From an uncultured delta proteobacterium (GTDB lineage: Bacteria > Desulfobacterota > Desulfovibrionia > Desulfovibrionales > Desulfovibrionaceae): 62,901 bases of DNA. The number at the start of each line of letters is the position of its first letter. Position 1 is the stretch's first letter. A program made the translations under genes and the position numbers. Below are positions 32,644 through 62,901 of the stretch, piece by piece. The DNA lies in NCBI GenBank assembly GCA_900079685.1, contig LT599019.1, forward strand, positions 529,966 to 592,866, written 5' to 3'. The notes beneath the pieces are model-generated. The model saw only the letters and a program-made list of their open reading frames with translations. It was not told where the DNA came from and ran no database searches.

Positions 32644-32770
32644 ATATTCCATGCTCTACCCAGCCGCGTCAAATAATGGTATTCATATAGGAATAGTTTT
32701 TGCTATTTTCCCAGCATCATGGGTATCACGACGGTTTTCCGTCAGCCCTAAACCCGGTGCCGGAGGATTC

Positions 32771-34660
32771 ATGCAACAGGAGAACCGCATCGCGTGCGGC
32801 GCGTGTCTCGGACGAATAACAAACCCCGCAAAGCCGTGGTTTGTAAAGGCACGCCCACTCCGGCGCTTAACGGCGGCAATGAATGCCGCCTACGCTTCCG
32901 TGGCGGGTTGTTGCCAAAGAGGACTTTGGCAACAACCTCAAGCGCGCGCCGCGCGCTTGCTCTTTCTTTCCATCCCCTTGACCGCTCTTTTTCTCGGCGG
33001 ATGCGGGGGAGCGAAATACGCGCCCGGCCCGGAATACTCCTCCCAGGAGCACGATTATTTACGCGCGGACGATAGCGCGGCGTTCAACGCCTGCGTGGCG
33101 ACCTGCTCTGAAAACACCTCTCTGGCGCTCGTGACCCGCACGGGCTGCCTTGAAGGCTGCGAAGAAGTCCGCCGGATGTTCCCTCTGTCCGGCAAAGCCT
33201 TTTCTTCCCGCCGGGACTGCCTCGACGCCCTTCTCCAGCAGGAAGTAGCCAAAGACGCGCGTATCCAGGAAATGCACCGGATGTGCGACGCCAAATGGAC
33301 GCACGTGCACAACCGCAAAGGCTGCTATATCGCCACCGAGGCCTTTTACGCCAACCTGGAACCCGCCGCCATGTGCGGCAGCGACGCCGCCGAAGCGGCC
33401 GCGTACGACCTTTCCCTCACCCGCGCGCGGGAAGATGCCGCCAAAGAACCTCCCGCGCCCGTGATGCCGGAACCGCCCGCCATGGCGGCTCCCGTGCAAT
33501 CCCCTCCGCCCGCGTCTTTTGCGGAACCGGTCGCGGAACCGGCGCCGGAACCACCCGCCGCAATCGCGCCCGCGCCTGTGCCCGCGTCCCCGGCGCCCCT
33601 GGCGGAACCGGCCAAAGAACCGGTCAGAACAACCCAGCCCGCCGGTCCGTTGGAGCCGCCGCCCTACGTGGCCGGGGACCCTCGCCCGGAAAGCGCCGCA
33701 TCCCCGGCTCCGGCCCCGGCACAGGCAGCCCCCGGCGGTTTGCCGGAAATCCATGATACGCCGAAATATCAAAAATCCGCTTCCCCGCAATCTTCCGCGC
33801 CCACCGCACCGGCACGGACGGAACCCGCCGCGCGGCCAGCGCCCGTCACCCCATCGTCCGTCACGGCACCGGCGGCTCCGGTAAAAACGCCTGCCGCGCC
33901 AGCGCCTTCTCCGTCCACGCCACCGGCACCGCAAGCCGTTCCCGGCCCCACTCCAGCGCAGACACCGGTGCAAGCACCGGCGACTCCCGCACCGTCGGGC
34001 AAGCCCGCCGCCGCGCCCGCGCAGCCTTCACCGTCTTCGCCGTCTTCTGCGACACCGCAGCACCCCCCGGCGGCAAGCCCAACTCCGGCGCAGCCTCCGG
34101 CAAGCGCTCCGGCCACGCCTGCCACGCCTGCCCAGGCCGCTCCGCCCGTGACGCAAACCGCTCCCAAACCGGCCCCCGCTGCAACGCCGGCTCCCGCGCC
34201 AGTGGTAACGCCCGCGCCCGCGACGACGGCAACACCCACAGCAACACCCGCGCCCGCGGTAATACCGGCTCCCACGCCTACTCCGGCTCCCGTGACGGCG
34301 CCCGCTCCCGTGGTTCCGCCGGAGCCGTCCGCCGCAACGCCCCGCGCCCTGCCTTCACCCGGCCCGCGGCCTTCCGCCGCGCCCGCTCCGGTGGAACCGG
34401 CGCCCGCGCTCCCCGCTCCGGCACAAACAAAAGCTACTCCCCCGGCGCAAACGCCGGACCCCGGAACGCCGCCGGAACGCCAGGGACCGCCGACGCCGGG
34501 CCTGAACGCCAACAGGCCTATTCCCCCGGCGACGGAACCGGCGTCCCCGGCCCGGCCCACCCTTATGCCGCCTGTTCCCTCCATGCTCGACAGGCCCTAT
34601 ACCGCGCCGACACTTATCGTGCCGCAGATCGACGTGCCGGAAAACGAACCACCCCGCTGA
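32771..34660 (+). CDS. Long Pro/Ala-rich lipoprotein with Cys-rich N-domain; signal region carries a dispersed repeat
   Basis: A 629-residue protein if started at the ATG that follows GGAGGATTC. The lipoprotein signal is LLFLSIPLTALFLGGC, but the lipobox Cys is residue 78. The unusual 60-residue leader before the hydrophobic core is encoded by a copy of the multi-hairpin repeat, in frame. An internal ATG at 32879 would shorten the leader to about 41 residues. The mature part has a compact domain with eight or more Cys (CVATCSENTS, GCLEGCEE, MCDAKW, GCYIATE, AAMCGSD). From residue about 226 it is a very long Pro/Ala-rich region, probably extended and spanning the periplasm. Function unknown. 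Confidence 0.7.
   Translation: MQQENRIACGACLGRITNPAKPWFVKARPLRRLTAAMNAAYASVAGCCQRGLWQQPQARAARLLFLSIPLTALFLGGCGGAKYAPGPEYSSQEHDYLRADDSAAFNACVATCSENTSLALVTRTGCLEGCEEVRRMFPLSGKAFSSRRDCLDALLQQEVAKDARIQEMHRMCDAKWTHVHNRKGCYIATEAFYANLEPAAMCGSDAAEAAAYDLSLTRAREDAAKEPPAPVMPEPPAMAAPVQSPPPASFAEPVAEPAPEPPAAIAPAPVPASPAPLAEPAKEPVRTTQPAGPLEPPPYVAGDPRPESAASPAPAPAQAAPGGLPEIHDTPKYQKSASPQSSAPTAPARTEPAARPAPVTPSSVTAPAAPVKTPAAPAPSPSTPPAPQAVPGPTPAQTPVQAPATPAPSGKPAAAPAQPSPSSPSSATPQHPPAASPTPAQPPASAPATPATPAQAAPPVTQTAPKPAPAATPAPAPVVTPAPATTATPTATPAPAVIPAPTPTPAPVTAPAPVVPPEPSAATPRALPSPGPRPSAAPAPVEPAPALPAPAQTKATPPAQTPDPGTPPERQGPPTPGLNANRPIPPATEPASPARPTLMPPVPSMLDRPYTAPTLIVPQIDVPENEPPR
32820..32945 (+). repeat. Multi-hairpin dispersed repeat, copy B (inside a coding region)
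   Basis: Aligns over about 125 bases with 61652-61775 at roughly 80% by eye. Shared blocks include AAACCCCGCAAAGCCG, GGTTTGTAAAGGCACGC, AACGGCGG, AATGAAT, GCCTACGC and TTGCCAAAGA-GACTTTG. It lies between the ribosome site and signal core of the lipoprotein gene and keeps the frame open. Confidence 0.8.
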
Positions 34661-61588: not shown

Positions 61589-61649
61589 CCAGTGCCGTCA
61601 CGGAACAGAAAAGGAGCGCCCGCCGGGTCCGGCGAGCGCTCCAGGCTGA

Positions 61650-61801
61650 TGACAAACCCCGCAAAGCCGGGGTTTGTAAAGGCACGCTCGCTCCGGCGTT
61701 TAACGGCGGGAATGAATCCCGCCTACGCCTACGCGGCGGGCCGTTGCCAAAGAAGACTTTGTCAACGGCCTCAGGCGGGCGCGCATCGCGCCGCCCGCCT
61801 G
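61650..61801 (+). repeat. Multi-hairpin dispersed repeat, copy A
   Basis: About 150 bases of successive hairpins: AAACCCC/GGGGTTT, GGCGGGA/TCCCGCC, CCGTTG-CAAAG/CTTTG-CAACGG and AGGCGGGCG/CGCCCGCCT. It is the best-preserved copy; the others are at 32820-32945 (same strand) and 6065-6150 (reverse). It lies between the alcohol dehydrogenase and the GT9 gene, and the last stem could terminate transcription. Confidence 0.82.
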
Positions 61802-61835: not shown

Positions 61836-62901
61836 ATGACCAAGATCGGCGTATGGAACACGGCATTTCTCGGGGACGCCATCCTCACGTTGCCTTTGCT
61901 GCAAACCTTGCGCGCGGCCTACCCGGATGCGGTCATCGATTTTTGGGTCCGCAAGGGATTCAAGGGTTTGTTCGCGTCCCACCCGGCGCTGACGAACGTG
62001 TACGAATACGACAAACGCGGCCGGGACAAGGGCGCGCTGCAAGCGCTCCGCCTTGGCCGCGCCCTGGGCCGCGAACGCTACGGGTTGTGGATTTCCGCCC
62101 ACGGGAGTTTGCGCAGCGGCATGCTGGCCCGCTGGAGCAGCGCCAAGGTGCGCATCGGCTACGCGGAACCCAGGGCCAACGCCTGGTTCTATACCCATAC
62201 GGTCCCGAGGCTGTTTACGGAATTTGAGGAAGTGGAGCGGCTGCTCCGCCTCCTCCTGCCGCTGGATCTCGGCGCGCGCGGCGTGCCGCTTTCCGGCTGG
62301 CCGGATATAGTGCTGCCCCAGGAGGCGGCGGATGCGGCTGAACGGTTTTTCGCCTCCCTCGCGGCGGAGCGGGCAGCGCCCGTTCTCGGCGTGCATCCGG
62401 GGTCCATCTGGGGCACCAAGCGCTGGCCCCTGGAATATTTCGCCGCCATTGCGGCTAAGGCCGCGCGGGAAGGCGCGCGGGTCCTGGTGTTCGGCGGCCC
62501 CGGCGATGAAGAGGCCATGGCGGAGGAAACCGTCTCCCTTGCGGTGAACGAGTTGTCCAAAGAAGACGGCAAGAGTATCATCAATCTCGCGGCCAAGCTC
62601 TCTTTGCCGGAACTCGCCGCCTTTATCGGCCGTCTTTCCTGCTATTTGACCAACGACTCCGGCCCCATGCATCTGGCCTGGCCCCAGAAAACGCCGGTCA
62701 CGGCCCTTTTCGGCCCCACGGTGCGGGAACTGGGGTTTTTCCCCAGAGGCGAAGGCGCGACGGTCATGGAACTGCCGCTTCCCTGCCGCCCGTGCGGGCT
62801 GCACGGCCCGCAGGAATGCCCGTTGCAGCACCACAAGTGCATGCGCGACATGACGCCGGAGATGGTCTGGCCCGACGTCGCGGCCAAAATGTTCGCTACG
62901 C
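61836..62901 (+). CDS. GT9-family heptosyltransferase-like protein, truncated by the window end
   Basis: An open frame of 355 codons running off the window edge. It starts MTKIGVWNTAFLGDAILTLP behind GGAAGGACT. Family features are the N-terminal GDAI-type loop, GVHPGSIWGTKRWP, the nucleotide-sugar motif TNDSGPMHLAWP, FGPTVRELGFFP and a Cys-rich C-terminal segment (CRPCGLHGPQECPLQHHKC). It probably adds a heptose to the LPS core (WaaF-like). The stop lies beyond 62901. It is separated from the IclR cluster by a dispersed repeat. Confidence 0.88.
   Translation, partial: MTKIGVWNTAFLGDAILTLPLLQTLRAAYPDAVIDFWVRKGFKGLFASHPALTNVYEYDKRGRDKGALQALRLGRALGRERYGLWISAHGSLRSGMLARWSSAKVRIGYAEPRANAWFYTHTVPRLFTEFEEVERLLRLLLPLDLGARGVPLSGWPDIVLPQEAADAAERFFASLAAERAAPVLGVHPGSIWGTKRWPLEYFAAIAAKAAREGARVLVFGGPGDEEAMAEETVSLAVNELSKEDGKSIINLAAKLSLPELAAFIGRLSCYLTNDSGPMHLAWPQKTPVTALFGPTVRELGFFPRGEGATVMELPLPCRPCGLHGPQECPLQHHKCMRDMTPEMVWPDVAAKMFAT

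Follow-up and report, generated by a model that had tools for sequence, protein, structure and literature searches.

An IS1182-type MITE in the signal-peptide region of a predicted lipoprotein gene, probably carried as an in-frame passenger

Introduction

The window, by which we mean the whole stretch of 62,901 nucleotides analysed here, contains a predicted lipoprotein gene whose start codon is separated from the hydrophobic core of its signal peptide by a repeat (D1, 159 nt, 82% identical to positions 61624-61782). What is this repeat, was it inserted into an older gene, how did it come to lie in frame within an export signal, and what has become of the gene? A sequence-only reading had proposed that a palindromic element interrupts the signal-peptide coding region in frame and has been exapted there, possibly providing a new start codon. 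The features concerned are the following (window positions).

32762..32766, plus strand: Shine-Dalgarno sequence (SD) GGAGG of the lipoprotein gene, read from the sequence; GGAGG also lies 5' of the ATG in the orthologues L022 and L086; SD duplex -9.5 kcal/mol
32771..34660, plus strand: predicted lipoprotein ORF, 629 aa, with signal peptide, Cys-rich domain and long Pro/Ala-rich tail
32790..32808, plus strand: left flank, which agrees with the right flank at 12/19 positions and may be a degraded duplicate of the target stem-loop
32809..32939, plus strand: putative MITE of IS1182 type, 131 bp, in frame with the lipoprotein; borders set by comparing copies; 8 substitutions relative to the consensus of L002-L004
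32940..32958, plus strand: right flank, probable target stem-loop, a 19-bp near-perfect palindrome abutting the MITE (18/19 self-complementary)
32957..33004, plus strand: hydrophobic core and lipobox LGGC with Cys78, aligned with Cys30 of L022; in L086 the counterpart is Cys29
61642..61772, plus strand: the other MITE copy in the window (L008), which overlaps no ORF scored as coding

Results

The predicted lipoprotein gene and its interrupted leader

The ORF at 32771-34660 is predicted to encode a lipoprotein on the strength of its hydrophobic core and its lipobox (LFLGGC at Cys78, codon 33002-33004), as judged by eye rather than with a predictor. It lies downstream of an lptD gene (PF04453), and it had no match in Pfam or NCBIfam at an E-value of 0.001. 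The coding score of the lipoprotein (-0.16) is uninformative for this gene. A comparison with L022 over the 145 codons that begin at the Cys gives a dN of 0.17 and a dS of 1.19, hence a dN/dS of about 0.14 with dS near saturation; the gene has thus been under constraint, the ratio being silent on the period after the insertion. The Cys-rich domain (window positions 33002-33439) is likewise without a Pfam or NCBIfam match, and has relatives in 25 of the 247 family genomes searched, own genome included. Among 22 loci whose leaders were inspected (minus-strand ones unoriented, so that only some are readable), L091, L095, L096, L098, L099 and L102 have, by eye, ordinary short lipobox leaders, and L092 has a short leader whose lipobox, also by eye, is not clear.

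Two orthologues allow the history of the leader to be read. The first, L022, comes from a genome of the same genus (G001) and is 70% identical over the aligned segment, its leader ending at Cys30; the contig of L085, a MAG record, is apparently the same as the 6368-base contig of L022. The second, L086, is 62% identical, has its cysteine at position 29, and belongs to a MAG labelled Candidatus Gastranaerophilales, a label that may be a binning error. Both share the GGAGG/ATG layout of the window gene, with Cys at 30 and 29 as opposed to 78. In the DNA alignment of the window gene with L022 the gap falls at the element, and a blastn search with the 131-bp element against L085-L088 gave a best E-value of 0.076. 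Because these two orthologues have the same start layout, short leaders and no repeat, we take the insertion to be real, in frame and derived. The palindromic repeat at 32809-32939 thus does interrupt the signal-peptide region as the sequence-only reading had it, and that reading was also right in setting the ribosome site and the ATG at 32771 apart from the core and lipobox at Cys78, GGAGG standing at 32762-32766 and the frame being open from 32771 to 34660. The comparison with repeat-free orthologues that it had suggested accordingly returned short leaders in both. Its estimate of 40-45 added codons was right as to the presence of extra codons and slightly low as to their number: relative to L022 and L086 the leader has grown by 48-49 codons, so that about 30 aa have become nearly 80. 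Element and flank together measure 131 + 19 = 150 bp, which agrees with an insertion in frame accompanied by a target duplication. No other carriers of the insertion in this leader were found; G001 does have two matches to related elements, at other places in the genome.

A MITE-like element with the ends of a resident IS1182-family IS

In its own genome the repeat gave 20 matches, which correspond to 18 distinct places plus two opposite-strand matches to the internal palindromes of two copies, and it was found in seven of the 59 related genomes searched, own included. Ends and flanks were measured after leaving out four partial copies (L013, L016-L018); of the 14 copies measured at both ends, ten have a length of exactly 131 bp, and the consensus ends are CAGACTGATGACAAAC and TTTGTCAAC(AA/GG)CCTC. 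The same genome harbors nine full copies of an insertion sequence (1571 bp in the eight measured) that is assigned to IS1182 by NCBIfam model NF033551 (463 bits, cut-off 270). The left end of the family consensus matches the 3' end of this IS at 16/19 positions and its right end matches the 5' end at 17/19, scores that in either case none of 2000 shuffles equalled, with crossed pairings scoring lower (equalled by 14 and 282 of 2000 shuffles). Compared with each other, the two ends of the element share TGACAAA alone in a local alignment, which 211 of 2000 shuffles equal. Because both ends match the resident IS1182-family IS, and do so with polarity, the repeat is on sequence grounds a MITE-like element: it has IS-like ends, a fixed size that leaves no room for a transposase, and a resident autonomous partner. 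The window copy carries eight changes relative to the consensus of L002-L004, of which five are apparently common to L005 and about three are private. An Rfam search of the window gave no match at gathering scores, and a plasmid search with the IS gave distant matches only (46 records, none covering 80%).

Stem-loops at the insertion sites

Seven of the nine IS copies have an exact duplicate of a stem-loop on both sides (21-40 bp); the other two are L073, which is without its left end, and L077, which abuts an assembly gap. The flanks are also duplicated, with at most two mismatches, in nine of the 14 MITE copies measured (15-35 bp). Those without a good duplication are the window copy (L001), L004, L008, L012 (at an assembly gap) and L015. 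L049, a related element in the genome of the same genus, has a duplicated hairpin too, and the hairpins of its neighbour L043 are similar and unequal. By eye, several of the flank hairpins are followed by T runs, as in terminators. Deletion of the target without duplication, as with IS1272, is thus not the pattern here. We consider it fairly likely that the IS1182-family transposase and the MITE duplicate whole stem-loops on insertion, the opposite of what IS1272 does, that any palindrome inside a gene is accordingly a landing site, and that in-frame landings give rise to long-leader proteins.

At the window copy a 19-bp target duplication is probable. The match of 12/19 between its flanks is equalled by 13.8% of random flank pairs and is not significant alone, and a palindrome scoring as well as the right flank begins at 191 of 62,701 window positions. 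The symmetry is 8/19 on the left compared with 18/19 on the right. Plain decay explains this mismatch poorly, because the element itself has only about three private changes; selection or mutation within the palindrome would be needed, or the site may not be a clean duplication.

An IS1182 element joined to a MITE that is without its left end forms a composite (L071/L070, G000:C1 ~1870300-1873450), with an identical 27-bp hairpin at its two outer ends. This fits shared end recognition by the IS1182 element and the MITE, though separate insertions followed by a deletion would give it too.

Discussion

A probable tolerated passenger in the leader

Our preferred reading starts from the match of the element's ends to the IS, from the stem-loop flanks that are mostly duplicated, and from two close orthologues that lack the insertion. 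We regard it as highly probable that a 131-bp non-autonomous MITE was inserted in frame at a palindrome of the signal-peptide region, and that the long leader is a tolerated passenger. The IS1182-family transposase of the own genome, or of a close relative, would have moved the element to a GC-rich palindrome among the n-region codons, where insertion plus duplicated palindrome (150 bp in all) would have preserved the frame. Translation would still begin at the old SD and ATG 32771, and the leader, whose n-region comprises about 62 residues, is predicted still to direct export, lipidation and cleavage at Cys78 through its core and lipobox, the extra residues presumably being lost with it.

Three of the six reading frames of the element are open, both in the consensus and in all ten copies tested (at least three open frames occur in 9.6% of shuffles), and since these frames are open anyway, roughly one in six insertions into genes would be expected to stay in frame (a factor of 1/3 for length and one of 3/6 for frame). 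Among the 18 copies, that in the lipoprotein gene is the sole clear in-gene case by a rough coding heuristic, which fails to score even the lipoprotein gene as coding. By this heuristic 16 of the other 17 copies lie clear of coding ORFs, a count in which it could miss cases. L015 was considered as a second in-frame copy and rejected: its frame is open, but the downstream gene has a plausible start codon past the element.

Other fates of the gene

It is possible, though we think it unlikely, that the insertion silenced or crippled the lipoprotein gene and that the gene is now decaying. Pairing between the element and the ribosome site is possible, and the leader structure is very stable: the 220 nt from the ATG fold with -97.5 kcal/mol (z -5.4). 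The mean unpaired probability of the SD of the window gene is 0.08 in a 180-nt fold and 0.29 in a 300-nt fold, compared with 0.48 and 0.29 in the orthologues (180-nt folds only). Thus, according to these models, the element could lower expression by folding back on the ribosome site. Against decay stand the 551 open codons 3' of Cys78 and the Cys-rich domain, which keeps the cysteines that are invariant among the four aligned relatives.

The exaptation proposed by the sequence-only reading fares less well. According to this explanation, the residues encoded by the element, or its mRNA hairpins, are now useful, for example by slowing translation or export. On the one hand, the frame is preserved, and the asymmetry of the left palindrome as compared with the right one would loosen the structure by the start codon. 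On the other hand, the open frames of the element exist whatever the site, so that the preserved frame does not bear the claim out; the private changes are too few for selection to be visible, and no second carrier of the insertion was found by which conservation could be judged. We therefore consider exaptation doubtful.

A comparably low probability is given to a new start in or after the element, which would yield a shorter leader. Five in-frame ATG, GTG or TTG codons precede the Cys, and from ATG 32879, the start suggested by the sequence-only reading, the cysteine would be residue 42. With an anti-SD sequence that we assumed, the duplex energies are -9.5 kcal/mol at ATG 32771, -1.7 at ATG 32879, +0.4 at GTG 32900, +0.6 at TTG 32957 and +1.6 at TTG 32978, so that 32771 alone has a strong SD. 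Moreover, the old SD and ATG are intact, and two orthologues have the same kind. These values speak against the start at 32879.

Finally, it is extremely unlikely that the repeat is a static REP- or BIME-like palindrome or an unrelated coding repeat: although it is palindromic, measures about 150 bp with its flanks, has an open frame common to its copies and has weak terminal inverted repeats, the length of 131 bp fixed in most copies, the IS1182-like ends and the hairpin duplications point to a transposable element.

Relation to known elements

Long direct repeats are listed in the ISfinder tables for some IS1182 members. According to the portions of PMC5678879 and PMC4923244 drawn on here, IS1272/TnSha1 of staphylococci, also of the IS1182 family, recognises its target stem-loops, many of them terminators, by their structure and not by their sequence, and the stem-loop is deleted upon insertion, with no duplication. 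The elements analysed here are alike in targeting stem-loops, but these are duplicated, as in the whole-stem-loop duplication that PMC5678879 draws as its possible pathway b; that paper also refers to a review in which other IS1182 members have palindromic targets. An excerpt of PMC3281130 lists ISPse1 (IS1182) with ends of 16/16 and a direct repeat of 4 bp, and stem-loop duplication is therefore, on that excerpt, no rule of the family. MITEs of 160 and 169 bp in Methanosarcina acetivorans, listed with the IS1182-family partner ISMac2 in the part of PMC3852290 used here, are similarly short non-autonomous elements tied to an IS of this family. If the last two columns of that listing are IR and DR, as the pattern of its rows suggests, these MITEs have direct repeats of 4 and 0 bp, in contrast to the stem-loop duplicates of 15-35 bp here.

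With respect to the protein, the nearest parallel is formed by the Rickettsia palindromic elements, which according to the part of PMC10969869 used here are about 150 bp long and lie in frame in protein genes, as do nearly half of those of R. conorii. The MITE is alike in size and in its in-frame position, but it differs in frequency, with one clear case among 18 copies by the rough heuristic. A literature search for a palindromic element in a signal peptide found no paper. Nor do the literature searches as a whole prove that stem-loop duplication is unreported. In-frame fusion through the insertion of a MITE is already known, and what is added here is the export-signal site and the stem-loop duplication. 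The locus shows, by comparison with orthologues, how a MITE has entered an export signal without breaking the reading frame of the gene. Furthermore, one IS1182-type transposase of this genome appears to leave whole-stem-loop duplications, making the branch between deletion and duplication directly testable, and annotators may bear in mind that a long leader can owe its length to a transposon passenger.

Other copies and neighbouring elements

Several further observations concern single copies. The full-length MITE L004 (G000:C1 ~2619080) lies between two different hairpins. The second window copy, L008, has unlike hairpins at its sides, and since its right flank is common to L009, recombination or an assembly join is the likely cause. 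Directly past the window end at 62901 there is an N, beside another MITE right end; the assembly near 61642-61772 and 62901 may be misjoined. At L062 (G000:C1:561582-561597) about 16 bp of a MITE left end stand directly beside a hairpin, the rest of the element being absent. A second family of short elements, at L063 (~1993-2180) and L064 (~2350-2520), has similar CAGAYTGMTGACAAA ends, interior palindromes of the TGGATTCCCGC/GCGGGAATGAC type, and a hairpin at its right but not at its left.

The IS110 insertions in L006, L014 and L016 were considered as an autonomous form of the repeat and rejected, the element (NF033542, 329 bits) lying inside the repeat's palindrome. In L068, L069 and L070 an IS110-family element (NF033542) occupies the same point of the internal palindrome of the MITE. 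Because this one point was hit in three copies, the MITE is itself a landing site, for an IS110-family element.
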